A stretch of DNA of 64,000 nucleotides from Theocolax elegans (lineage: Eukaryota > Arthropoda > Insecta > Hymenoptera > Cerocephalidae): NCBI GenBank assembly GCA_026168455.1, contig CM047426.1:3899501-3963500 (forward strand). Direction: 5' to 3'. The translations under genes and the position numbers were made by a program. Shown here one piece after another: positions 524 to 59,225 of the stretch (positions within the stretch are counted from its first letter, which is position 1; each line of letters starts with the position of its first letter). The notes under the pieces were generated by a model. The model worked only from the letters and a program-made list of their open reading frames with translations. It was not told where the DNA came from and searched no databases.

Positions 524-3500
524 CTAGTAACAAAATTGTCATTTTTATTTTTTATTAATATTACTTTTTTTAATAAAGAAAAGGCGATTAATACGACATA
601 TTTGATTTTCTAGTCGTAATGATCGAATTTTCTTTTTTTTGGTATTGGATATATGGTGTTTAAGCGAATGTACTTACAAACGTACTTACTGTCAGTATCA
701 AACTTCGTGTAATGGAAAAAAATTTCATTCCCGTTAGGCTTATGTGATCGGTTGTCACTTGGGTTAAGAATCTGCGGACCTGTTGAGCATAATTTATTAA
801 ATTTTGCTTATCAAGTTTTGAACTTTTATGAAGGGGTACATATTTAAAATTTAAATTTCCCGCGTTTTTTTTTTTAATAAGAATTATCGACATTATAGTT
901 ACATACGTGATGAAATTGCTTGTAAACGATAACGGATTAATTTTTGTGAAGAAAAATAAATCTAACCTTAAAAGAAATTTGAACGTATATATAGAGTATA
1001 AGACGATAAAATGTCGAGTTTATTGTAAAATATCAACATTATAGCAAATTTATATTTTCGGTTAACCTCAAAATTATTAAATTTCAACAAGAATATATGG
1101 TTTAAAATAAGGTAAACGTTATACCCTGATAGTTTAATAAATATTTTATTTTTTAAAGCTTTTCTTTTAATTAATTAATTCGACGAATTTACTAATTCAT
1201 TTGATTTATAGGTTAGGATATATTACAAAATAATTAATCTAACGCATTAACGATAAGAATTAATTGAAACTTTAAATTTAAAATGACAGATTCGAACATT
1301 CTCTTTGTTTTACTCTTCAATTATTTATAAATATTACAATGGCGGGAAATTCGGATTTACGATTAACATTATAATTCCAAATACAATTCTAAAATGATTA
1401 ATAGATTAAAAAAAATATTCGGAATGATGTAAGATATTTACTTCTGTCGAATAGCTCGAACTGCAAACACTGTACAATATTGGTGCTGGTAAAAGAGATT
1501 CATCGTGTACCGTAGCCGCGTACAACGAAACTGCAGCTGTCCTCGATAGAAGAAAACCAAAAGAAAAACAGAAGTATACCGTTTGAATTGCATTTGGCAT
1601 TGGTCTACAAAAAATAATTTAACAATTAAAATTTCAATGTTTTTAAGGGGGTTTAATTTTTATAATTTCTACCTTACCGACTGAAGATAAATAAAAAAAT
1701 ATATAATAGACCTACACTTAACATTATTAAAAATGAGATGTTAGTATATCATACTTTAGACAGAAATACATTAATTTTTGTGAAAAAATAATAACAAATT
1801 TCGTGCAAAGGGCAACGAAGTTTTAAATTTTACAAATTAATGCTCTCTGAAAATAACCTCAAAAAAATAAGAGATTTCTCAAAAATTAATTTCAAATTTT
1901 TCATATACTAATGGAATATTAGTAAACAAAGGATAATTAACACTTAGAATTTTATAAATTCTTTCAATTGCTCGATCGGTAAAGTAGAGATATGGATTAA
2001 TTAAACAATTTCATGACAAATATTACTTGAAAGAGTTAAGTAACTGAATGCAGATGAAATAAAGATTCGTCGAGAAGGACAACAAAACGATGTCGGATAT
2101 CTGTGAATCCACGCGTCGCGTCATCGTAGCCAATCGATTGAAGTCGATCCTCGCCTCGGCCCACCACCATTCCGGCATCGCCTTTACAATGAAACAGTGC
2201 TAAATTCTTTGTTAGCCGTTTCCGTGCAATTCTCACATTTTCGTGTTTAAAAAAAAAAATTTACAGGCAAACACAAACGGAAGATCTACAAAAAAATACA
2301 AAGAGACGTTATATATACCTTCCCCTTGATCGAATACAATCTTTGATTCAATTGCCGGAATTGATCAGTCAAAGCAACGCTGACCAGGATGAGAAAAAGA
2401 TCCATAAAGTTCCAGGAGAATGTACTCAAAAAATTGACGAACTGCACGACGAATCCTTTCCAGGATGCAAAATTGGATTCGGTGAACATCTGTTGATTAA
2501 AAAAAAATATTTATTATCGTTAATGGCAATCGAGGGATTGTGTATTAATATTTTTAAATACCTGCGGAAATTGTAGGGAAAAATAAGTGGCGAGAATGTC
2601 GGTGTTACCCCGAAGACTCGCGCATTCTAAGGCGCTCACGTAACCGGATAGTATCGACAATGTATGCTCCACTATGAGTGTGTAAAAGATTTTAAGAATT
2701 TTTTTTAAAACAATAAAGCATAAAAACAATATTTTGAAAAAATTTTTTTTCGAAACCCAGCTATTGAAGAAAAACATTATGAAAATCAATTTTTAATGAA
2801 AAATTTCTTTCGTAACACGGTTTTCAAAGGAAATTCTCCGAATAGACTGGCTTTTTTTAAAAATAAATTTTATTAAGAAAATATTTTTACCAATTAACAA
2901 CCAGATTTTTGAAAAAAGAGATACCCTGTATATCAAAAGGCTATTTACTCAAAATTTTTTTCTTTTTAAAATCAAATTTAATAAAATATCCTTTTTTAAT
3001 CAATTAGATCTCTCCAACGAGTGTAGAGAGATAGTCGTCTCCCTCTGGTGGTGGGAAAGCCACCAGCCAGAGCGCGAATTTTTAGACCGTATCGCGAGTT
3101 ATTTGTTACAAAATTTTAACGTTCGGTAAATGTATATGTATAATAATATCGGTCTCTCCGAACCAAATGCTTATTTTTAGATTATTGCAGGCCTATCGTA
3201 CTCTTTGTCCACTATGGTTGGTGGAATTTCCCAGAGCACGGCCTTTAAAATAATTAAAGGCGTTTCGTCCTCGATCTCCAGTTTGGACTCCTCAGTAAGG
3301 AACTGGAGATCTTACCTTAGACGCTGTCGCAAGATGATATGCGACGCCAGCAAGATGCTGCGGCTATATATATAGAAAACAGACGACGATCTCTCCAACG
3401 AGTGTAGAGAGATAGTCGTCCTCCCTCTGTGGTGGGAAAAGCCACCAGCCAGAGCGCGAATTTTTAGACCGTATCGCGAGTTATTTGTTACAAAATTTAA

Positions 3501-6500
3501 CGTTCGGTAATAGTATATGTATAATAATAATCGGTCTCTCATCCGAACCAAATGCTTTACTTTTAGATTATTGCAGGCCTATCTATATATATAGCCGCGA
3601 GAACATCTTGCTGGCGTCGCATATCATCTTGCGACAGGCGTCTAAGGTAAGATCTCCAGTTCCTTACTGAGGAGTCCAAACTGGAGATCGAGGACGAAAC
3701 GCCTTTAATTATTTTAAAAGGCCGTGCTCTGGAAATTCCACCAACCATAGTGGACAAAGAGTACGATAGGCCTGCAATAATCTAAAAAGGTAAAGCATTT
3801 GTTCGGAGAGACCGATATTATTATACATTTACAATTAATGCTCTCTGAAAATAATCTCAAAAAAATAAGAGATTTCTCAAAAATTAATTTCAAATTTTTC
3901 ATATACTAATGGAATATTAGTAAACAAAGGATAATTAACACTTAGAATTTTATAAATTCTTTCAATTGCTCGATCGGTAAAGTAGAGATATGGATTAATT
4001 AAACAATTTCATGACAAATATTACTTGAAAGAGTTAAGTAACTGAATGCAGATGAAATAAAGATTCGTCGAGAAGGACAACAAAACGATGTCGGATATCT
4101 GTGAATCGACGCGTCGCGTCATCGTAGCCAATCGATTGAAGTCGATCCTCGCCTCGGCCCACCACCATTCCGGCATCGCCTTTACAATGAAACAGTGCTA
4201 AATTCATTGTTAGCCGTTTACGTGCAATTCTCACATTTTCGTGTTTTAAAAAAAAATTTACAGGCAACAAACACAAACAGAAGATCTACAAAAAAAATAC
4301 AAAGAGACGTTATATATACCTTCCCCTTGATCGAATACAATCTTTGATTCAATTGCCGGAATTGATCGGTCAAAGCAACGCTGACCAGGATGAGAAAAAG
4401 ATCCATAAAGTTCCAGGAGAATGTACTCAAAAAATTGACGAACTGCACGACGAATCCCTTCCAGGATGCAAAATTGGATTCGGTGAACATCTGTTGATTA
4501 AAAAAAAATATTTATTATCGTTAATGGCGATCGAGGGATTGTGTATTAGTATTTTTAAATACCTGCGGAAATTGTAGGGAAAAATAAGTGGCGAGAATGT
4601 CGGTGTTACCCCGAAGACTCGCGCATTCTAAGGCGCTCACGTAACCGGATAGTATCGACAGTGTATGCTCCACTATGAGTGTGTAAAAATTTTAAGTATT
4701 TTCTTTTTTTTTAAACAATAAAGCATAAAAACAATATTTTGAAAAAATTTTTTTCGAAACCCAGCTATTGAAGAAAAATATTGTGAAAATCAATTTTTAA
4801 TGAAAAATTTCTTTCGTAACACGGTTTTCAAAGGAAATTCTCCGAATAGACTGGCTTTATTTAAACTAAATTTTATTAAGAAAATATTTTTACCAATTAA
4901 CAACCAGATTTTTGAAAAAAGAGCTACCCTGTTTATTAAAAGGCTATTTACTCAAAATTATTTTCTTTTTAAAATCTTTTAAAATCAAATTTAATAAAAT
5001 ATCCTTTTTTAATCGATAATTTTTTCAAAAAACGCGTTTTTGAAAAATTATTTCGTACTAATTTTCTCTTCTTATTTCCTTTAAATTAATGTAATATTAT
5101 AACTGATATATCATATTTCAACACTGCATAATTTTCTAAATTATATACCACGAATTTAAAATATTATACGTTTGTAAAAACCTAAAAACAAATGAACATT
5201 TAAGAAAAACAATAATTCCAATAAGTCTCATTTTACACCCATCACAAAGTATAAAAACAATCTCTATAAATTCTTCAAAGAAATTTCGCACTCGTATAAA
5301 AGATTAAAAAAAATATCTTCTTAACAGAAAAATTCCAGCCGCACATATTTAAAAAGATAAAAAATATCTGTATACCTAACGCGAGAACCATGACAACGAC
5401 GCTGAGAATTTTAAATTTTAAAGCGAGATTTATCGAGGTGGAGGTACGTGGATGATGCCTTGCAGCCAATTCCCGTTCCATGTTTTCCCAGGAGACCGCG
5501 AAAACCGGCCACTGCCTTGCGAGTTTGAGGAAGAGGAGGGTCGTTATGCCCGCGGTGAACGAGAACACTAGATTGCCTGGAAATTTCAAGATACATCCAC
5601 GTGATCCTTGAGAATTATGTTCCTCTGTTATATTGGATTTTGTAGGTTAGGTGGTGCTGAGAGAATTATGTAAATGGATCTGTTGATTGATTTCAAAAGG
5701 TATTATGTTGAAGCGACGTTGATTTTGTTTGGTGTATTTGGGTGATTTAAAGGTATAGAGTAAAGTAAAGAAAATAAAAAAAAATTTTTTTGCTTTTCAA
5801 CTTAATGAGCTAAAATTTTTGTTGTATTTTTGTAGTAAAAATATATAATTTTTTGGAAATTTTCAGTAAGACAGAATCATTTTAACCAAAGTAATGCAGA
5901 AAAATGAAAAAAATATGTGTTTGATGGCAAATGATCCTTGTGGCACATCAGATTTTGGATATATTAGAAATTTTTTTCTGATTATTTTTTTTTTTATTTT
6001 CTTTTTTATTTTAACGTCGCTTTTTTTATGCTCCCAAACCGGTGCTAATCAGCGACGGAGGTCATACGATGTCTTGGAGAAAGCACTTGTTGAAAATACA
6101 TTCGCCAGTGGTGCTTGTATCAATCGGCCGGGCCGGGAATCGAACCTGGGACCTCCAGATTACGAGCCCGACACCCTACCGACCGAGCCATCTCAGGCCT
6201 TTTTTCTGATTATTCTTTCAAGTAGTTGTTTAAACTTTACACAGGCTTTTTTTAATTTAATATTATTTTGTTTATTAAAAAACATATGTTATTCTGAATT
6301 TACTTTTTTTATGCAAAAATAACAATATTTCATGTACATTGTACTATTTATTAAATTATTTTTTATCTAATAAACAAAAACACTGTTAAAAAAATAAAAA
6401 GCCTGCGTAAAGTTTAAACAATTACTTGAAAGAATAATCACAAAAAAATTCAAATGAATCCAAAAATTGATGTGCCGCGAAGACCATTTGTAACTGTACA

Positions 6501-24739: not shown

Positions 24740-26087
24740 GCCAGATATATTAATATACGGGAGTGATTATAAGTCTGAACGGTGTCCAACATTTTTTGGC
24801 AATATTTTTTTCACTTTTCGTATTTTGTCCGATTTATATTAGTAATTTTTGAGGCGTCGAGTCGTTTTATATATTTGGGAACGAGTGTTACAATTTGACT
24901 GTCAGACCGAAATGAGTGCGAATTGTAACTCGCTCTAACACATATAAACACACAGTCACGTACATTTACGCACACACACTCTTACTCACGCCCAAATAAA
25001 TATACACACACACACACAGAAACGACACGACAATACAGACACTCAAATACGTCGTATAAACACACAGACGCGCCGCACACACACATATGTATAAAGGCAT
25101 CAAAGTCGATGTATATATATTATATACCGTTTGTCACGCGGCGCGTATCGGTTTTCGATAAATCGTTTGCCTGACCACCGCACCCGATATCCAAGTTCAA
25201 AGAGCACAAGTAGAACGCGATAAAGGAGGAATGGATCGCGTCTATAGGGAACGATTTAATGGAGAGCAAATAGTTCAGGTAAACGCGTGATTGAACCTTC
25301 TTTTCTCTCTCTTGTCTCTTTATGTGGACACGATCATTTTCTGGGTTGTACAGATTGGAATTTATATCTTCACGATTCCGAGATAATTATTTTGTATTAT
25401 TGCTTCTTTTTTTTTCTTATAGGGTGGAAAGTTTATCCTATAAGAGTAAGGTATAATTTATTTTATCTTTTATATGTGGGATGAGTGTTGTAAGAGCGTA
25501 ATATAATTTTAAACAATTTTTTTTATAAAAATGCTATTAAATATGTGTGTAATAATATGTGTTCACGGAGAGGGAAAGTTAGTCATAAAATTTGTATTAA
25601 TTTCTTTTTGTTATATGAAAATTATGTACCAGCAGTTATTTTCTTACTGCTTGGTACATCACTTTTCTGTACCGATAGTAGCACGTGTTTTTTTAGTGTT
25701 AAGCATTCAAATTTTCAATACCCCTACTCTTATTTTCTATAGCACAGCACGAGAATTCCAAGTGCCAACTATATAGAACGTATTTTTCGTATGTTAATTG
25801 TAGACAACAGAACCAATATTTTGTGTACTACTACAAAAAATTATGGATGCGTTCGTGATAGACAAATTGAAGCAATAGGATCTCATTAATTTGTTTGTTT
25901 ATACTTGTACAAAGATAAACATAACCTGAAATATATATATCTTAATCACATAATGGTTTGACAAAAACTTTGTATACATCTATATGTTCACTATCTGTAA
26001 TAATAAGAAAATAATTAGTATATAATATTAAAGTTTCTATTACATTACTTAATATATATCCAGGAAAAGTATACAGTAGTACTTTCC
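24740..26087. other. Intergenic stretch with CA-rich part and possible exon
   Basis: Low-complexity CACACA at 24,935-25,085, then a GC-richer patch (25,120-25,280) and AT-rich DNA. Apart from the candidate exon at 25,231 nothing is recognised. Confidence 0.35.
25231..25278 (+). CDS. Possible first coding exon of an unidentified host gene
   Basis: ATG after AAAGGAGGA opens 16 codons (MDRVYRERFNGEQIVQ) ending at a donor CAG|GTAAAC. The patch is GC-richer than its surroundings. No family is recognised and no partner exon was found, so this remains speculative. Confidence 0.22.
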
Positions 26088-26375
26088 GAACTAAAAGCTT
26101 TACTTTTAAAATAAAACATGCACTTTTTGCTGTTTGTCCACTATGATTGCTGGAATTTCTTAGAATACGACCTTTTCAAACAAATTTTTTTGGCGTTTCG
26201 TCCTTGATCTCCAGTTTGGACTCCTCAGCAAGGAACTGCCGAGCTTACCTTAAACGGCTCAAATTAACAAAATGTTATGCGGCTGTATATATAGAAGAAA
26301 AACGACGATATCCCTAGCGAGTGTAGGGAAATAGTCATATCCATCTTGCGGTAGGAAAAATGAGCAGCCAGATTA
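26088..26375 (-). mobile_element. Diverged copy of the hammerhead repeat
   Basis: Shares with 3007-3830, in the same order, the words TTTGTCCACTATG, GGCGTTTCGTCC, CCAGTTTGGACTCCTCAG, TATATATAGAA and GCGAGTGTAG. It is clearly older, with many substitutions. Confidence 0.8.
26192..26256 (-). ncRNA. Type III hammerhead ribozyme, diverged copy
   Basis: Core CUGAGGA, stem II GUCC/GGAC and GAAA are intact. Stem I is UAAGG/CCUUG with one wobble. Stem III GCCGU/ACGCC has one mismatch. The cleavage base is U. It may be weakly active or dead. Confidence 0.65.
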
Positions 26376-39180: not shown

Positions 39181-39525
39181 ATGGACGGCAATGATGATGC
39201 TAATTTTACATTCTCTTTAAGTAAGTTATCTTTCTCAGATGGTGCATCCACTAGTTATAGTGCATTCTCTTCAAGTAAGTTATCTTTCTCAGATGGTGCA
39301 TCCACTAGTTATAGTGCATTCTCTTTAAGTAAGTTATCTTTCTCAGATGATGCATCCACTAGTTATAGTGCATACTCTAGGCGCCCCGCCGTGGATTTGG
39401 GTAATTATCCAGAAAATGATTCACGCGCTCACGAAGTCAACCTCAGTTCCTCAACCAATGCTATGACCTCTACAAATATTAACGTACCATCAGCACGGGC
39501 TTCAGTCAAATACAGTGTACAATGA
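39181..39525 (+). pseudogene. N-terminal open frame of the LINE, with Ser-rich 18-residue repeats
   Basis: From ATG at 39,181 (MDGNDDANFTF) the frame stays open to TGA at 39,523. It contains three copies of an 18-residue unit SLSKLSFSDGASTSYSAF and a Ser/Thr/Asn-rich tail. Its place before the endonuclease suggests ORF1, but no zinc knuckle or RNA-binding motif is visible. Confidence 0.5.
39211..39372 (+). repeat. 54-bp minisatellite, three copies
   Basis: Three almost identical 54-base units starting TTCTCTTTAAGTAAGTTATC. The period is a multiple of three, so the frame is kept. Confidence 0.92.
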
Positions 39526-50733: not shown

Positions 50734-53439
50734 ATGCAAAGCCACATGCAAACAATGCTCGACCTCATGGCGTCCCGAGAACGAAGGACGGTCAAGAGGA
50801 GTGTTTATTTACTCGGTGATGACGCCGTGTATGAGAGCCTACGTGAGCGGTGGTTGCAGCGTAGTGGGGAAATGTCCGTACTGCGTGATCGGTTGTTGCG
50901 CGCTATGCTGCGGGAAATAGAGCCGTCGAACACGCAAATCCCGTGGTTTGAGTGGGATGCCGAAGGAGGGGAGAGTGACAGACCGCGCGGAGACGTAGAG
51001 CCGTCGAGAGAGGGCGAAGGGGTAGATCTCTCGGGTAAAGTGAAGAAGAAGAGGGGGCGGCCGCCTAGAGCAACGGTGGTAAGCACAGGCGACAGCGCTG
51101 CTTGACGAAGCGGCCGGTCCTCTCGAGTCGAGCGAGGGGAGGGGAGGGGGTAAGCAGTCCCCCCGCACACCGTCGGCTGGTTATGCGTTAATGCAGCCGC
51201 AACAGGTAGCAGTCCCCGTGGCCACGTGCGAGAGTGAGCCGTACACGTGGCGAGAGCGTGATGAGTACGTGCCGGTGGGAGAGGGAGCGCTCAGGCTACC
51301 CCCCACAACAACCACCACTACTGTTTCCAGCGCGCGCACCGAAAGGTCGCCGCCGGACTAATTGCATTTGGTAGGCACGTAGCATCTACCGAGACGACCT
51401 CCAGCTTTCTCACATCTGGGCCGAGAGTAACGGTTCGGGAAGAGTTAACCGAGGTTCTTCGGCAAAACCCCGCCGAGTGGGAATATATTTCCCGGCGAGT
51501 GACGAGTGGCGTTGGTGCCAGTGCCGCTCCGAGAGTATGTGAGCAACGGCACGGGGGTGACAGAGCGGGAGGCTAGGGGGGAGGAACATCGTTCCCCAAC
51601 CTTGGCAACACCGCCGTAGACAAGCACCGGCTTGCGAAGCGGCGGAGGAATGGTTTACTCCGACGCAGTTTGACAGGAGTGGGGGGAGAGTGTCTCCTCA
51701 ATCCCCGTCGAGCGCAAGCAGGTCTACCGATGTGTCCTCGCGGGTGAGTGAATCGCGGCAGTACCAGCGCGAATTAGAGGCGGCAAATCGCGGGCTCGCG
51801 GAGTTATCGCACCGCGATAGTGAAAAACGGGTACGCCGCGAGAAGCCAACGAGCCGGCGTGGTTCGGTTGCTGGATCATGGGGGAGCGAGAGTGCTCCCC
51901 GGTTTAGCGACCGAACGAGTAGTGAGAGTGAGACAGACGACGGGTGGTGCGAGCGCCCACGTGCGAAGCGGCGCAAACCCCGTCGGGAGCTGTCTGCTGT
52001 GGCGAGCGGAGAGGAGTCGGGGGAGGTGGCGCCTCGTGTGAGTGACACGCGCGCCAAGGAGTTATCCCCACCTCGGTCCGTTAGGAGCTCCAAGCGGACT
52101 GAGGAGGACAAGTCCCGACTTGTGCGCCTCCTGAAGGATTGGGGTTTAAGCTTCAGTGGCGAGGGGAAACCGGAGGAAGCGGAAGATTTTTGCGATCAGC
52201 TGAACGATTGCCGCTCGGGATCGACTGCGTCCCCGACTGTTTGGATGCATGCACTGCATTGCATTTTCAAAAAGCGGGCGGCGCGCTGGTTTCGAACGGT
52301 GAAACCGGAGCTGCGCTCATGGACCGATTTCGAGCGGGAATTCCGAAATCAGTTTGTGAGGAGATACGATAGCGGTGATCTTTACGAAGATCTTTTACGC
52401 CGCACGCAAGGTAAAGGAGGAAAGCGTGAACTCCTATATACTGAGCGTTAAGTATCTCCTCTCCCGCTTCACTCATCCCCCGCGGAGTGAAGAAGTGGTG
52501 CGGATAGTTTACCGTAACCTACACCCGGACTATCGCCGCGCAATGAGCGGACCGCGTGGTAATGGATCTCCGTGACATTGAGCGGTACGGACGACGGTTT
52601 GAACGTCAAAAGACGCTCGACAGTCGATACGTACCGCCCCCGCCGGCCGAGGAAAATGCATCTGCCGGGTGCGGCTTGTCCGACGGCGCCAAAGGCGAAG
52701 GTTGCGGCGGTAACGGTAAAATCTGGCAACCGAGAGCAAGAGTAAGAGCGCGCGCAAAGAAAAGGCCGAGCCGAGTCGAGTTGACTGCAACGACAAGAAG
52801 TCGAAGCAGTCGAAGAAAAAGAAGAAAAAGGCCGTGGCGACGGATAGTGACTCGAGTGCAAGTCAATCCTCGCGTGAGAGTGAGAGAGCGCGCGTTGCCG
52901 AGTTAAATGCTAAGGGAGCCCCACGTGTGAATCAGCCGAGAGCGAACGGTGGTGCCAAAGCACAACCGTCGTACGCGCACGTGGCGGCGCGTTGGTCCCC
53001 ACAGCAAGCGGGGAAACCCGTGCGAGAGCAACATGGCTACCGAGCGTCTGCTTCGGCTGGCTATAGCCGGCCTGGAGGCGGGAGCTCGGGTCCGACGGCA
53101 CGCCCGCGCACCCCGCCGCAAGGTGGCGAGTTCGTAGGCGCTTGCTATACGTGTCAAGCGGTAGGTCACCGTGCGTCGGAGTGCCCGGAGATCGTGTGTT
53201 TTAAATGCCGGGGAAAAGGCCATACCGCTCGAGAGTGTCCTTCTATAAAGAAAGTGACGAGTGTATCGTGCCAATTGTGTAACGCACCGGGAGTCACCGC
53301 CCGTGATTGTGTGAATCGGGAATGCCCGGCTTATTCTATCCGGCGGGAAACGGGCGGGCGGGGGAGCAGAGAAAGTAAAATCTCTGTTTCCCCTGGCGAG
53401 CCGTGGCGTCAAACAACTGACAGTGCGGGAGGAGGGTGA
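50734..53439 (+). pseudogene. gag: Gag of Gypsy-type element 1, frameshifted
   Basis: Starts with a SAP-like N-terminal segment (LRDRLLRAM, IPWFEWDAEG) homologous to the Gag of element 2. The capsid-type domain at about 52,110-52,560 carries LLKDWGLSFSGEG, ARWFRTVKPELRSW and YRNLHPDYRRAM. Then comes DSRYVPPPP and, near the C-terminus, two CCHC knuckles (CYTCQAVGHRASEC, CFKCRGKGHTAREC) and a third with Val for His (CQLCNAPGVTARDC). The frame breaks near 51,100, 52,415, 52,555 and 52,680, so it is dead. Codons are GC-rich, unlike element 2. Confidence 0.85.
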
Positions 53440-54682
53440 CGTTGCGCGCCCCGAGGATGTGTGACAGGCGCGCGTGCGAAAAGCGGGAAAAGCGTGGTGA
53501 GGCCGAGTCGGGCCGAGTAGACGAGAGAGCCGAGAGGGGGGAGCGGCGCAGCCGAACTGAGCCGAGTGAAAACCCGGTTAATACCGAGGAGGCTCGTTTG
53601 GCCGATATTGAGAAGCGCTTGAGTATCGAGCATGGGCGCGCGGTGGAAGAAGCGCGTCGGCTGCTTGCGAAAAATGCAGCGAGGGAGGGAAAGCGAGTTA
53701 TTCCCTCGAGTGTATGGGGAGAACCCATTCGGGCCTTGACAAGTGGGGAGCCGCGAGATCAAGGTCGTGTGTTGCCGAAAGGTGATGAGGAGGGAGCCAA
53801 GCCGTGCGCTGATCGAGAGGATCGGCGGCGCGAGCGTGTGGTGACGGATGACCCGGAAAGCGAGGAGGAAGTTATCGTTTCAGGTGTTCAAACCGAAAAC
53901 CGTAACTTTCTTTGCATCGAAATGGGAGGGGAAAAATACAAAGCTCTCCTCGATCCCGGTGCAACTCGCTCGTTCGTCGGCCCGCGAGTGGCGGAACGGT
54001 ATTCGAGTCGTCTGGCGCCGAGTCGCTCTCTGTTTCGTACAGCTACGGGCAAAATGAACCGTATGCTCGGAACATTGAGAGCGACCGTGACAATCGATAA
54101 TTTGTCGGAGGTTATCGAGTTTTGTGCTGCACCGTCCCTCGAACACGACGTAATCCTGGGAATGGATTTCGGTCAAGTGTTCGATATCGACGTGCGGTTG
54201 GGACGTGGTGTTTGGCGTTTGAACGACGGCGAATGGCACGAGTTCTTACGTCCAGACGGGAAGGCGGAGAGGGCGTATGTTTTCGCCGAGTGCGCCGGTA
54301 TTTCGGAGTTAGAGAAAACCGAGCGCGAGCGTGTTAGCGAGCTCGTGGAGCGGGTTTTGAGCCGACAAGCGACAGATGTTCCCGGGGTCACGCACCTCGC
54401 GGAACATCATATCGTGGTGACAGATCTCACTCCAATTCGTCACAAAATCCGGCGGATGTCTCCGCGGATGCTGGAGGTGGCGACGGAGGAGGTTGAACGG
54501 CTGTTCAATGAGGGAATCATTGAACGGTCGGCGAGTGACTACAGTAGCGCGCCCGTCCTTGTGAAAAAGCAGGACGGGACGTACCGCTTCTGTGTCGACT
54601 ATCGCGACTTGAATCGAGTCACAAGGAAGGATGAGCATCCTATTCCTAATATGGACTCGATTTTAGACAAGTTGCGAAAGTC
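53436..54682 (+). pseudogene. pol: Pol of element 1: protease and start of reverse transcriptase, truncated
   Basis: One long open frame overlaps the end of gag, implying a frameshift for Gag-Pol. The protease lies around residue 170 and has LLDPGATRSFVG, with Pro where Ser or Thr is normal in the catalytic D-S/T-G triad. The Gypsy reverse transcriptase begins with MSPRMLEVATEEVERLF, SSAPVLVKKQDG and RFCVDYRDLNRVT and ends abruptly at MDSILDKLRK, before the catalytic FADD block. RNase H and integrase are absent. At 54,683 the sequence turns into the antisense of element 2. Confidence 0.88.
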
Positions 54683-55866
54683 AATACAGAATCGAATGGA
54701 GCCATCGGATTTGCGGACAAGAACTGGTGCACTACTCCAATCACTGGCTGATCTCTCAATCACACCTAACTTCAGCATCTTCTTAACTTCTTCCTGAGCC
54801 ACCTCCAGCATCTTGGGAGACATCCTCCTCGTACGATGCTTGACTGGGGAGGCATTCTGCACATCAATAGAATGCTCCGTCCAATCAGTCATTCCCAACT
54901 TCTCCGGATTATACTCAGGAATCAGCCTCTGCACCAATTCTTGTACTCGAGCCCTCTGATTATCCTGCAATTCGGATATACCAGAGCACTCACCATGGAT
55001 ATTCGACGACTGCCTTTCAGCATTATCGTCGAATGTTCTCCATTTCCCTTCGCTAACTCTCCATTGATTCCGTCCCAATCGAACATCGAAATCAAAGGCC
55101 TTGCCAAAATCCATCCCAAGTAACATGTCAGTGTCTAAATCACTGACTACGTTGCAATGGATTTGGCCCACCTGACCGTCAACTTCTAACATGATGTCGA
55201 TTGTCCCCACCGCACTAACTGTACCACCACTAAAATTTCTAAGTACCGAATTATTAGTTCTAATTCTACTCTTGTACCGCTGCGCTAATTTTAGACCCAA
55301 CTAAAGACAACGTAGACCCGGAATCGATCAAAGCCCTATACGTAATTCCTCCTAATTCGACGTTAAGAAATTTACGATTATCCTGCATTAATCATAGGAG
55401 ATTCCCTGTCTAGTTCCCTCCTCAATTGATGGATCTGGTGTCTCTTTGTTACGAGAAAAGATTTCCGAATTCGTAACATTAGATTCCGTTGATTCTAACC
55501 CCAATAGAATATCAACCCCCTGATTAATTATATTTAATCTTGAATAATCTAAATTCTCTTCCCGATTACTAAATCTTTTCTCGTTAACCTGAGTCCCGCC
55601 ACCATCAATTGATTTCCTAGCTGGCCTAACCTTCTCTGAAACTCGCACCATAGATTCTGACTTCCCTACGTTACCTCACTATTAGGATTAGGAACAGATG
55701 AATCCGAATCGCGATCTAATCTCACTACCTCAGGGAGCACCCCCTCCGTACTAACCTGAGTTTCCCTATCACCCTCCGTACTAACATGCTTTCGTTTGTT
55801 ACCCTCCGCACTACGATCAGACACGTCCCTAATAATTTCCTCGACTAACTTCACCTGTTTAGACAC
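54676..55866 (-). pseudogene. pol: Pol of element 2: linker, protease and start of reverse transcriptase, broken
   Basis: On the minus strand: a Glu/Ser-rich linker (55,866-55,388) with stops, an aspartic protease with normal IDSGSTLSLVG (about 55,330-55,300) followed by a frameshift, then LLGMDFGKAFDFDVRLG and the reverse transcriptase start MSPKMLEVAQEEV, SSAPVLVRKSDG and IRFCIDF, where it is cut at the junction. Catalytic RT residues, RNase H and integrase are missing. Confidence 0.85.
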
Positions 55867-55898: not shown

Positions 55899-58238
55899 TT
55901 AATGTTTGTCGAGAGTCAGAGGACCTGTCTGTGCTCTCGCTTGCCCGTTTCCCAAAAAATTCCGGAATTCTTTACAATTCGGACAATTTTTAAATGTGAC
56001 ACCCACCTTGTCGCAGACTTGACAGTGAATGTCCGGCACCTTCATCAACGGGCAATCCTTTATATGATGGCCCGTTTCCCGGCACCGAAAACATTTCCTA
56101 TCCGGGCATTCCGCACTTCGATGTCCAACTCTCTGACAATTAAAACAAGGACCGTGAAATTCCCTACTACGGTTGTTTGTACTCGGCCTAATATTGTCCC
56201 TACGATCAGTAACTCGAAAAGGCTTAACTCTGCTCGGAGACGGAGGAGTAGCCGCTACACTGGCATAAGTCACTCGACTATCTACCATTTTTCCCACCTT
56301 CTTCTCGGTTTTCGCTATCGCCGCAGAAGATGGTTTAATCTCACTACTCGTCTTCTTTTGAACCATCCTCTGATCTTTATCCGATCCAGAGGACGATTTC
56401 ATCATTTTCTGGTTGTGTTTCTTATCTACGTTAACCTCCGGACTCTTAATTTCCGCCTTTGCCACCTTGCCCTTCGAAGTGGCCCCTTTAAAAGCCGCCT
56501 CTGGAATCCACATCTTCTCCTTTGGCGGTGGCGGAACATAGCGACTGTCTAACTCCTTCCTTCTCTCGAATTTTCGTCCCCACTTCTCAATATCGTCTAA
56601 CGTGTCCAGATATTCATCTTCCATGGCCCTCCGATATTCCGGCAATAAATTGCGGAAAATCATCGGAACCAGTTGATAATCTGGCAGTGGTCTCCGTAAA
56701 TGCCCTACTATCAAACGGATGCAGGAGAGATACTCCGCAATCCCTTCACCTTTGGCCTGAGTACGGCGTCTCAACTCCATCAAGATGTCCTCACGATCCA
56801 GGATTCCTAGGAAGCGATGTCTAAACGCTTTCTTAAATTCCTTCCAGGAATTAATCTGGTCCTTCACTGACCGGTACCAACGCACAGCCATCTTGGACAT
56901 CGTACAAGGAATCGCACTCAAAAATTCGCGATCCGTGTACGCCGTACTCTCGAAGCAATCCTCCAGTTGCGCAAGATATTCTTCCGGTCCCTCCTTGCCT
57001 TCACCAGAGAACTGAATCCGCCAGCCTTGGAGTAGTTTGACACACTCAGTACTTCTGCGTGTGTCAACCGCCTCCCTACGGCCAACGCGGTTCCTGGTGA
57101 CCCTACGAACAGCGGAACCATCCGATTCTCGCGCACCGGAATCGGAATCTTCGTCCCTTCTCCCTACACGCCCTACTGCAGCCTTTCTGGTCTTTTTTCT
57201 AGATTTCCTCCTGGATTTACACAATTCCTCCTCCGAACTGCAATCGGTATCTGAAACTCCATTCGTCTTCCCTCCGCTCTTCTTTGGCCGATTTCCATTG
57301 CTAAACCCTAATTGGACGGGTTGTAACAATGTTTGGTTCTGAGGAGTCTCGTTTTGTGAATCAGGAGTAATTTCTGTCCACAACTTACCCTGATCTCCCA
57401 ATTTCCGAATTGTGATCATTGAGTCTCTTTGCTTACGCGACTGTTCTAACAACGAGTCGCGTATTTCATGATAATTACGAACTTCTTGTTCGTTCTCATC
57501 ACATACTACCCTACGCTCCCTATTTTCTCTAACATCCCTACTCGTATCTTCGCCCGACGGTCCCGACTTTTGCGCTACATTTAAATTAGCTAACTTTTGA
57601 TCTATGATCGCTGATAATGAGATCTTTAGCTGTTCCCCAAGGATCTCTCGAACGACATCCGTAATCAAATGTTTCATCCTGGCCAAGTCTTCATCTTCAC
57701 TCTGCACTGGAGTCGGATCTCGTGGCCGAACAAATTCACCAGACACAGATGGGATCGGCTGACTCGACGGATTGGATGATTCCCCGACCACGGACATCAT
57801 CGCTCGAGAATCCCTTGGTGGAGTAACACTGGTCTTCGTTGACTTCATATCTCTGACAGATTTTTCGGACACCTTTGACTTGTTCGTCACTCTCTTGGGT
57901 CTACCTACTCTCTTGCTCGTATCAGTCGCCGAACCTTCATCAGAAGCCTCCGTGATGGACTGGATTGCACTCGTCTCAGGATTATTATCCTGTGACTCAC
58001 GAGGACTCTCCTCGTCTTCCGCAAACCAGGGAATTCCTGCTTCTGGTGCCAATTTCTTCATATCAGCTCTCAATAATCGCTCTTTTAGTATACCCAACGT
58101 CCCAACTACGCTAAGTCCCCTCGATTTTAATTCATCCGTTACCGCTTTCTGAGACATCGCATTAATCGTGATGTTCATTTTCTGCATTTCCCGATTTTCC
58201 CCTAATAACCTCTTCATGGCTTCTTTGTACGAGTTCAT
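55899..58238 (-). CDS. gag: Gag polyprotein of Gypsy-type element 2, intact
   Basis: 779 residues from a true ATG (MNSYKEAMKRLLGENREMQK). A SAP-like motif sits at about residues 50-85 (ELKSRGLSVVGTLGILKERL). A long charged linker follows. The capsid domain is at about residues 400-570 (LLQGWRIQFSGEGKEGPEEY, WYRSVKDQINSWKEF, FRNLLPEYRRAM, DSRYVPPPP). CCHC knuckles from about residue 695 are CFNCQRVGHRSAEC and CFRCRETGHHIKDC, plus a third, CQVCDKVGVTFKNC, with Val for His. It would form the particle and bind the element RNA. No frameshift is seen, so it is younger or better kept than the element 1 copy, from which it is well diverged. Confidence 0.9.
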   Translation of the reverse strand: MNSYKEAMKRLLGENREMQKMNITINAMSQKAVTDELKSRGLSVVGTLGILKERLLRADMKKLAPEAGIPWFAEDEESPRESQDNNPETSAIQSITEASDEGSATDTSKRVGRPKRVTNKSKVSEKSVRDMKSTKTSVTPPRDSRAMMSVVGESSNPSSQPIPSVSGEFVRPRDPTPVQSEDEDLARMKHLITDVVREILGEQLKISLSAIIDQKLANLNVAQKSGPSGEDTSRDVRENRERRVVCDENEQEVRNYHEIRDSLLEQSRKQRDSMITIRKLGDQGKLWTEITPDSQNETPQNQTLLQPVQLGFSNGNRPKKSGGKTNGVSDTDCSSEEELCKSRRKSRKKTRKAAVGRVGRRDEDSDSGARESDGSAVRRVTRNRVGRREAVDTRRSTECVKLLQGWRIQFSGEGKEGPEEYLAQLEDCFESTAYTDREFLSAIPCTMSKMAVRWYRSVKDQINSWKEFKKAFRHRFLGILDREDILMELRRRTQAKGEGIAEYLSCIRLIVGHLRRPLPDYQLVPMIFRNLLPEYRRAMEDEYLDTLDDIEKWGRKFERRKELDSRYVPPPPKEKMWIPEAAFKGATSKGKVAKAEIKSPEVNVDKKHNQKMMKSSSGSDKDQRMVQKKTSSEIKPSSAAIAKTEKKVGKMVDSRVTYASVAATPPSPSRVKPFRVTDRRDNIRPSTNNRSREFHGPCFNCQRVGHRSAECPDRKCFRCRETGHHIKDCPLMKVPDIHCQVCDKVGVTFKNCPNCKEFRNFLGNGQARAQTGPLTLDKH

Positions 58239-59225
58239 CGCGAAAAATTGTTAAAAGAAACAAAAATTAAAATAAACCCTACTAAATAAGAAACCTCAGC
58301 AAAGCTAGTTTGGGAAAATATAATACAAAAAATGCTAAAGCTGTAACGCGAACCGTGTACACGTGTCGGACGTAAAGGGACCCGAATTTCACTCGTGCCA
58401 AATAAAGGGAATATAATAAATAATAAATAAAATAAAATATTGATATTATATTATTCTGGAGATTACCTTCCTTGAATCTTCCTACAAAAGGGGAAAAAAC
58501 AAAATAAGGGAAAATATATATCCAAAACGTTATCACCTCCGGTTGCTCACTTTGGCCCTTTGCCAATATGGATGCTTGGAAAGAATAAAAATGAATAAAT
58601 AATTAAATTCCCTTAGGTTTCTCCGCTACTAAATACTCTGTCCAAACCTGAAAACGCGAATCCCAAAATCGACCCGAATTCCAGATAAAACTACTACACC
58701 ACCCAAAAGAAAAATAAATTACTATAATCCCCACTGAAATAAATAATAAACACACGCACAAAATAATAAATAAAATAAATAAATAATAAAATAATAATTT
58801 ATATAATTGGGGATATACTCGGCACGAGTGAAACCACAACACACACTAAATATAACTGCCGCAATGATTGAGGATTGTCTTTACAATCCTGATTCAAAGC
58901 AACAAAAATTGACAGCAGCCCACAAAAAGCGCTTGTCGTCACAATAAAAATAGGGAAAATAACATATATTTATCAAATAAATAAATAAATGATCACACAC
59001 AAAAGTCCTCACTAACGTTGGTCAAACGGACACTACTATTCAAAAAAATTTCGATTTTCAGACACAAAATGGCCACCAAAACCGACGCCAACTAAAATTA
59101 AAATGGCGAATCCGTGCGTCTTCTCAAATAAAAACCCACTCAACACGGAATTCACTACTCCCGAATAAACCCTACGGATACAATTATTGGAGCCAAGGAA
59201 TTTTAAAATAGTTAAAAATTCAACA
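58239..59225 (-). other. Untranslated leader of element 2
   Basis: About 1 kb between the primer-binding site and the gag ATG, AT-rich, without open frames of note. Such leaders usually hold the packaging signal. Confidence 0.55.

Follow-up and report, generated by a model that had tools for sequence, protein, structure and literature searches.

The stretch of DNA analyzed here (the window, 64,000 nucleotides of Theocolax elegans contig CM047426.1) carries one insertion of a dispersed family that is probably a retrozyme of the non-LTR type whose ribozyme is a type III hammerhead; its RNA circle would serve as the template for repeated reverse transcription, primed on both target strands, by a putative Penelope-like enzyme. 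We lean toward the more detailed view that the chromosomal scars go back to single circles, made by the ribozyme and reverse transcribed again and again on both target strands from two fixed internal sites. Penelope-type machinery would then mobilize an animal retrozyme whose ribozyme is of the plant type (type III); its 11-bp loop-loop lock could give a pseudoknot when the fold is active or, alternatively, an inactive hairpin.

The window insertion lies inside a gustatory receptor gene and spans positions 3007 to 3837 in direct and inverted units of the hammerhead element. A full unit of 381 bp (3007 to 3387, ribozyme on the minus strand) is 97.7% identical to a 388-bp unit of another locus, L048. 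It is followed by a second, partial direct unit on the same strand that lacks the ribozyme (3388 to 3583, 95.5% identity to unit positions 1 to 194) and by an inverted partial unit on the plus strand (3582 to 3837). The outer end of the latter, near unit position 122 to 131 (its exact position is ambiguous), nearly coincides with the second of the two start sites described below; the left end of the insertion is atypical for the family. The period of 381 bp given in the earlier note is real in the window (3007 to 3388), where it derives from 1.5 units, but units elsewhere mostly measure 387 to 389 bp. Trehalose_recp exons are also present in the window, and a gag protein encoded there had no relatives in the protein collection searched. 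An old single-armed relative of 72% identity spans a unit junction on the minus strand at 26082 to 26372; its ribozyme (approximately 26185 to 26262) has an intact hammerhead core and a broken helix III.

Both of the type III hammerheads with complete cores reported in the earlier note were recovered. The plus copy (3636 to 3704, predicted cleavage after 3642) has the core CUGAGGA, GAA, A15.1-U16.1, and C17, with stems III, I, and II of 6, 5, and 4 bp. The minus copy (3257 to 3327, predicted cleavage between 3320 and 3319) has the same core, but a missing base reduces its helix III to 4 bp. Against the type III profile RF00008, the minus copy scored 31.5 bits (E value of 1.4e-4 in a 1-kb search) and the plus copy 35.5 bits (E value of 1.2e-6 in a 121-nt search). 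The invariant core and the type III arrangement of the three stems place the sequences in RF00008, although both score below its gathering score of 48.5. Counting against the motifs, Rfam at gathering returned nothing in the window, and no hammerhead was listed in a whole-window search at an E value of at most 1. Gathering is a weak test here, however, since it also missed all 14 phage loci with hammerhead-like cores that a general core pattern had found (type I by eye). A type III descriptor matched one site in the window, whereas 60 first-order Markov sequences gave no match; the short helix III keeps the minus copy from fitting.

In the plus copy, loop 1 (3651 to 3661) and loop 2 (3679 to 3689) hold 11 complementary bases, with a predicted duplex energy of -18.1 kcal/mol that none of 5,000 shuffled pairs equaled. 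The predicted lowest-energy fold of the isolated ribozyme is a nonhammerhead hairpin (-28.0 versus -12.9 for the hammerhead). The predicted circle has a far lower energy than its shuffles (z score of -6.2), while its paired fraction is similar (0.58 versus 0.59). Covariation was assessed on 51 distinct gap-free sequences, including some indel-shifted ones: the 22 most divergent of these showed no excess of pairing over shuffles, and inspection of the table revealed no pair replaced on both sides by a different standard pair. A two-sequence fold contained 4 double changes compared with a mean of 5.1 in shuffled columns, and its energy was below that of 200/200 shuffles, which do not keep dinucleotides. 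Among the young full units of the fetched loci, the ribozyme was no more conserved than the remainder, and a search for Pol III boxes gave none that was convincing. We count the hairpin preference, the shuffle-like paired fraction, the lack of covariation, and the lack of extra ribozyme conservation against the explanation proposed here.

The window insertion is flanked by a direct duplication (copy A, 1829 to 3004; copy B, 3828 to 5017, directly after the element) with 1,149 of 1,195 aligned columns identical, 22 mismatches, and 24 gap columns. We considered this 1.18-kb repeat as a long target duplication and dropped the idea because copy A opens with target uninterrupted by the element; moreover, 16 other loci have target duplications of 11 to 18 bp. 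The duplication of approximately 1.2 kb is probably an allelic or assembly effect: copies A and B look like an empty and a filled allele, which may have been brought together either through unequal exchange or through misassembly of haplotypes.

In its own genome (658 Mb), a pattern for the catalytic strand had 1,579 matches and its reversed control none, and both younger and older copies are present. Two family patterns found no relatives in viral contigs, and a pattern search of prokaryote genomes likewise gave none. A loose core expression fits 98 of 100 full units, drawn from 19 of the 20 fetched loci. The description of a retrozyme-like tandem family in the earlier note is supported: the units (43.6% GC) are noncoding, as judged by a listing of open reading frames, form arrays that carry hammerheads with intact cores, and are inserted at dispersed sites with target duplications. 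Such a unit of approximately 388 bp is too short for the reverse transcriptase and GIY-YIG endonuclease of a Penelope-like element as such.

The structure of the insertions was mapped on the 20 fetched loci. In 18 of these, a tandem array is followed by an inverted array (L057 and L058 have one arm only), so that the inverted unit seen in the window is the usual architecture of the family rather than a local oddity. Among the first 100 cores listed, neighbors less than 1.5 kb apart were oriented minus-minus in 20 cases, plus-plus in 6, minus-plus in 19, and plus-minus in none. Target duplications of 11 to 18 bp flank 16 of the 20 insertions, while duplications of at least 11 bp occurred in 1 of 400 mismatched flank pairs. 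The 31 outer-end junctions fall on two start positions approximately 34 nt apart (14 at unit positions 98 to 105, 16 at 128 to 140, and 1 at 151), and 15 of 18 insertions have one of each (P = 0.004). Both ends are of one kind in L063, and probably also in L055 and L061; together with L057 and L058, we count these exceptional loci against the proposed explanation. Microhomology of at least 2 nt was present at 20/31 junctions (null, 0.169), and 7/32 strand ends had ATT directly after the nick (background, 0.04; P = 2e-4). Alleles were uniform within an insertion across both arms, with 4 of 126 cells mixed compared with a permuted mean of 73, and 4 of 81 cells differed between arms; this uniformity would speak for monomeric circular RNA in an indirect way.

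These footprints, namely, two internal start sites with a spacing of 30 to 40 nt and extension of both strands, match those of Penelope-type integration. In PMC11167929, both strands were cut and extended by the purified Penelope protein, with a preference for ATT; synthesis began at two neighboring internal positions on the RNA, and the 30 to 40 nt between them correspond to the genomic tail. PMC3846280 describes rotifer Penelope copies with inverted pLTRs, a 31-bp tail on one of them, and duplications of 8 to 10 bp; head-to-head arms are a further shared feature. Unlike Penelope-like elements, which have a minimal type I hammerhead, the family has a type III ribozyme, no reverse transcriptase or endonuclease frame in the unit, and common microhomology. 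The last point counts against the parallel, since the in vitro starts reported in PMC11167929 were at sites without homology to the cut DNA, as do its reports that ribozyme mutation had no effect on insertion in vitro and that ribozyme activity required protein.

Among retrozymes, the metazoan non-LTR type described in PMC7229834 shares noncoding tandem units of a few hundred base pairs, a GC content below 50%, a hammerhead per unit, and no LTRs noted, but has type I ribozymes, and the words “inverted” and “head-to-head” are absent from the main text of that paper. The plant LTR retrozymes of PMC4918200 share the type III hammerhead and, by prediction, a ribozyme blocked in the circle; their units of approximately 700 bp in LTRs and duplications of 4 bp differ from the units and duplications found here. 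The contrast drawn in the earlier note, with type III typical of plants and type I of animals, agrees with PMC7229834 and PMC7761336. Its suggestion that a type III family would be unusual in an insect needs correction, since PMC7936874 already reports type III motifs from termites, D. pseudoobscura, and other Diptera, those in termite genomes being isolated. The hammerheads of termites, flies, and delta-like RNAs in PMC7936874 resemble ours in their presence in insect DNA, a 5-bp start of helix I, and Watson-Crick pairing between loops 1 and 2. In those ribozymes, however, helix I contains an internal loop plus an additional hairpin, and the contact involves 4 nt (GCCR/YGGC); the family described here has plain loops, two of 14 nt that are complementary over 11 bases, within a tandem mobile unit.

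In the mechanism that we propose, the sense strand would be transcribed and cut by the ribozyme to a monomer of approximately 388 nt, which would be closed into a circle. The footprints suggest that AT-rich DNA is then opened by a putative Penelope-like enzyme with a staggered cut, in many cases immediately ahead of ATT, that leaves 3' overhangs. The insertions bear the footprint of the next steps, in which each target 3' end primes on the RNA at one of the two internal sites, as a rule a different one on each side and in many cases with 2 to 6 nt of matching sequence, and one monomer, presumably circular, is copied up to approximately 16 times from both sides. In the insertions, the position in the unit at which the two arms are joined varies, and fill-in of the overhangs leaves the target duplication.

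Alternatively, Penelope-type two-ended integration might use a linear template, a multimer transcribed from an array already in the genome, with the ribozyme as a passenger or end trimmer only. Unprocessed RNA was indeed the main in vitro substrate in PMC11167929, and L054 and L060 carry mixed alleles. Yet a mixed source array should give mixed copies, while 122/126 cells are uniform and the arms agree in 77/81, an argument that weakens if source arrays are themselves uniform; we regard a linear template as unlikely. LINE-style twin priming for the inverted arm was dropped after the 20 loci had been mapped. Self-priming (snap-back) of one growing cDNA, as PMC3846280 infers from palindromes at inverted junctions in rotifer Penelope copies, could also yield inverted arms, and in L045 and L062 the arms do meet at almost equal unit positions. 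Their differing meeting positions in the other two-armed loci, together with one outer end of each kind in most insertions, which is unexpected from a folded copy, make this very improbable.

A further alternative is ordinary satellite DNA with an incidental ribozyme, its spread and homogenization being due to unequal crossing-over and gene conversion; tandem arrays and within-locus uniformity are expected from conversion too. However, this explanation is already strained by the target duplications, and it is hard to reconcile with the fixed outer ends and the microhomology of the dispersed insertions or with uniformity even in loci with just two full units, leaving it very improbable. More improbable still is the idea that the copies were left by an infectious RNA agent, viroid-like or delta-like, instead of a resident retroelement: the small structured unit and type III ribozyme recall the delta-like agents of termites and toads (PMC7936874), but no second, opposite-strand hammerhead fitted the descriptor in the window, and copies of different ages coexist in the genome.

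The reading that we prefer, repeated copying of circles by Penelope-type machinery, bears on a proposal in the Discussion of PMC7229834, where Penelope-like elements were suggested as the route of animal retrozymes back to DNA, given the type I hammerheads and tandem arrangement that the two have in common as well as their coexistence. Here, start sites, both arms, joins, and target choice can be read from the insertions and match the behavior of purified Penelope protein in vitro, and the proposal therefore becomes testable in one species. While type III motifs in insects were already known, a mobile tandem variant, with two ribozyme loops complementary over 11 bases, is new. If our reading is true, Penelope-type machinery would be identified as the mobilizer of an animal retrozyme.

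In the window element, 3007-3387 is a complete unit; an incomplete one in the same direction follows at 3388-3583, and 3582-3837 is part of a unit in inverted orientation. This agrees with the direct and inverted units that the earlier note had described at this locus. The two hammerheads for which it had claimed a complete core in type III order were likewise recovered, at 3327-3257 on the minus strand and 3636-3704 on the plus strand, by stem order and by RF00008, which scored them at 31.5 and 35.5 bits when short segments were searched, both below its gathering score of 48.5; whole-window Rfam searches listed no hammerhead. Run over the window, a type III descriptor gave a single match, and over 60 Markov sequences it gave none; the minus-strand hammerhead does not pass it. 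A third copy (26082-26372), 72% alike, keeps the core with a broken helix III. Compared with this copy, 53 of 59 positions are kept in the ribozyme region (3264-3322) and 170 of 249 in the rest of the unit (p = 4e-4); for a narrower stretch picked post hoc (3263-3304), the counts are 40/42 and 183/266.

In the 658-Mb assembly containing the window, the unit has at least 301 matches, a lower bound because 39 of 1,632 candidates were scored. The pattern CTGANGAGTCC, 10 to 24 bases, GGACGAAACGCC, which represents the catalytic strand alone and is no proof of type III by itself, occurs 1,579 times (reversed control, 0), and about 100 listed matches feature three common loop 2 forms, AAACTGGAGATCGA, AAGCTGGAGATCGA and AAACTGGGGATCGA. 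Among 100 full units (63 distinct) from 19 of the 20 fetched loci, a loose core expression fits 98. The exact 67-nt ribozyme string is present in 54 of them. Across these units the ribozyme is no better kept than the remainder (minor-letter share, 0.0094 versus 0.0104), as expected if copies drift once inserted. Most of 20 further short stretches from older relatives, chosen from matches of the old window copy at 26082-26372, have a recognizable core. One older relative (L064, 1-991; 72-81%) is likewise two-armed, with the core intact in one arm and CUGA changed in the other.

A direct array meets an inverted array in 18 of the 20 loci, the exceptions with one arm only being L057 and L058; L045, L048, L056, L059 and L061 have internal irregularities. 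Arms span 0.3 to 16 units (17 loci measured) and join at varying unit positions, near-symmetrically only in L045 and L062. Among the first 100 matches listed, all on C1, neighboring cores within 1.5 kb were oriented -- 20 times, ++ 6 times, -+ 19 times and +- never; therefore, as far as examined, an insertion turns the 3' side of its sense strand to the target at both ends. The one-armed insertion of L058 (2049-7300) holds about 13 direct units, and 23 nt of other sequence separate the last from the second target-duplication copy.

Repeated copying of one RNA circle from both ends of the target would predict uniform alleles within and across arms. Using nine substitutions, each common to at least two loci and some adjacent and thus not independent, we found 4 mixed site-by-locus cells out of 126 (14 loci, each holding two or more full units), against a mean of 73 and a minimum of 54 with permuted labels. 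For the nine loci whose two arms each contain full units, the arms disagreed in 4 of 81 cells. Units are 0.0088 apart within loci versus 0.018 between them, and within a locus the distance is 0.00878 in the same arm and 0.00869 to the other arm. Alternatively, within-locus gene conversion after insertion could mimic such one-template uniformity.

Target duplications of 11 to 18 bp, overlap with the element included, flank 16 of the 20 loci; only 1 of 400 mismatched flank pairs reached 11 bp. Matches in L055, L057 and L061 (6-8 bp) are at chance level, and L052 was excluded from the count since its best match lies off the junction, though a junction match is visible. With unit numbering from window 3007 and the 388-bp unit of L048 as reference, 31 junctions fall at unit positions 98-105 (14), 128-140 (16) and 151 (one, in L050, scored as the second kind). 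One outer end of each kind was found in 15 of the 18 two-armed loci (p = 0.004), and in 14 of the 15 with duplications (p = 5e-4). At these two start sites the RNA reads ...GUAAC and ...UUAUAC. Microhomology of at least 2 nt marks 20 of 31 junctions (null, 0.169; p = 4e-9), and of at least 4 nt, 8 of 31 (null, 0.019). ATT, a motif adopted from PMC11167929 ahead of the test, directly follows the nick, whose exact position is uncertain by the length of the microhomology, at 7 of the 32 strand ends (p = 2e-4 against a background of 0.04), and any base plus TT does so at 13 of them (background, 0.127). Duplications are 76% AT and flanks 67%.

The window element lies inside a minus-strand gene which, because of its Trehalose_recp exons, we infer to be an insect sugar-type gustatory receptor. 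Both copies of the flanking duplication, A and B, carry, on the minus strand, the exons matching Trehalose_recp profile positions 190-301 (2026-2498 in A, 4024-4499 in B); these encode identical protein, and 3 of 366 nt differ between them. Copy A starts with the uninterrupted target. On its right the element ends near unit position 122-131 and copy B adjoins it; on its left it ends at unit position 1, which matches neither start site. We read A as the empty and B as the filled allele, joined either in the animal or in the assembly only, the exon pair being either a real duplication or a haplotype misassembly. Elsewhere in the window are two LTR-type retroelement remains with gag, zinc knuckles and aspartyl protease (51561-54797, plus; 55899-58250, minus) and a 54-bp tandem repeat (39209-39378; 3.1 copies, 96% matches).

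Loops 1 and 2 of the hammerhead (14 nt in both) are complementary over 11 bases (-18.1 kcal/mol, a strength that none of 5,000 shuffled pairs reaches), and the common A-to-G change in loop 2 (36/100 units) keeps a G-U pair; the ribozyme shows no formal covariation. A stem I-stem II pseudoknot is predicted in about 40% of hammerheads, according to the consulted parts of PMC3088659. The loop bases are alternatively predicted to form a nested hairpin disrupting stems I and II, which is the minimum-energy fold (-28.0 versus -12.9 for the hammerhead without pseudoknot) and is also present in the predicted circle; this resembles the blocked ribozyme of plant retrozymes (PMC7229834, in part). The predicted circle is much more stable than shuffles (-126.2 versus -86.8; z = -6.2), with a paired fraction not above theirs (0.58 versus 0.59). 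At the window, the minus ribozyme and its own inverted copy form perfect 81-nt arms whose sampled positions pair in the folded locus, so this ribozyme copy may be silent.

In agreement with the earlier note, the consulted parts of PMC7229834, PMC7761336 and PMC4918200 assign type I hammerheads to animal and type III to plant retrozymes. Type III motifs are described in termites, Drosophila pseudoobscura and other flies in the portions consulted of PMC7936874, where none of the hymenopterans searched has that type III architecture, and what we consulted of PMC7761336 refers to insects that have type III elements, on the basis of work in preparation. Among the papers listed by full-text searches, with preprints and most subscription journals outside, we recognized none as describing an insect type III tandem retrozyme or two-armed retrozyme insertions. 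Hammerhead-like cores, judged by eye to be type I, occur in 14 phage contigs; at the gathering score, Rfam found a hammerhead in none of the 14.

On Penelope elements, the consulted parts of PMC11167929 stress starts non-homologous to the cut DNA, whereas microhomology is common in the T. elegans family; they also report in vitro insertion without need of a ribozyme, and ribozyme cleavage only with the protein. The same parts describe a purified protein that cuts and extends both strands, favors ATT and uses two adjacent internal RNA start sites, whose spacing corresponds to a 30- to 40-bp genomic tail. Rotifer Penelope copies have inverted pLTRs, one with a 31-bp tail, and duplications of 8 to 10 bp (PMC3846280, in the parts consulted). 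The T. elegans retrozyme-like family bears each such footprint.
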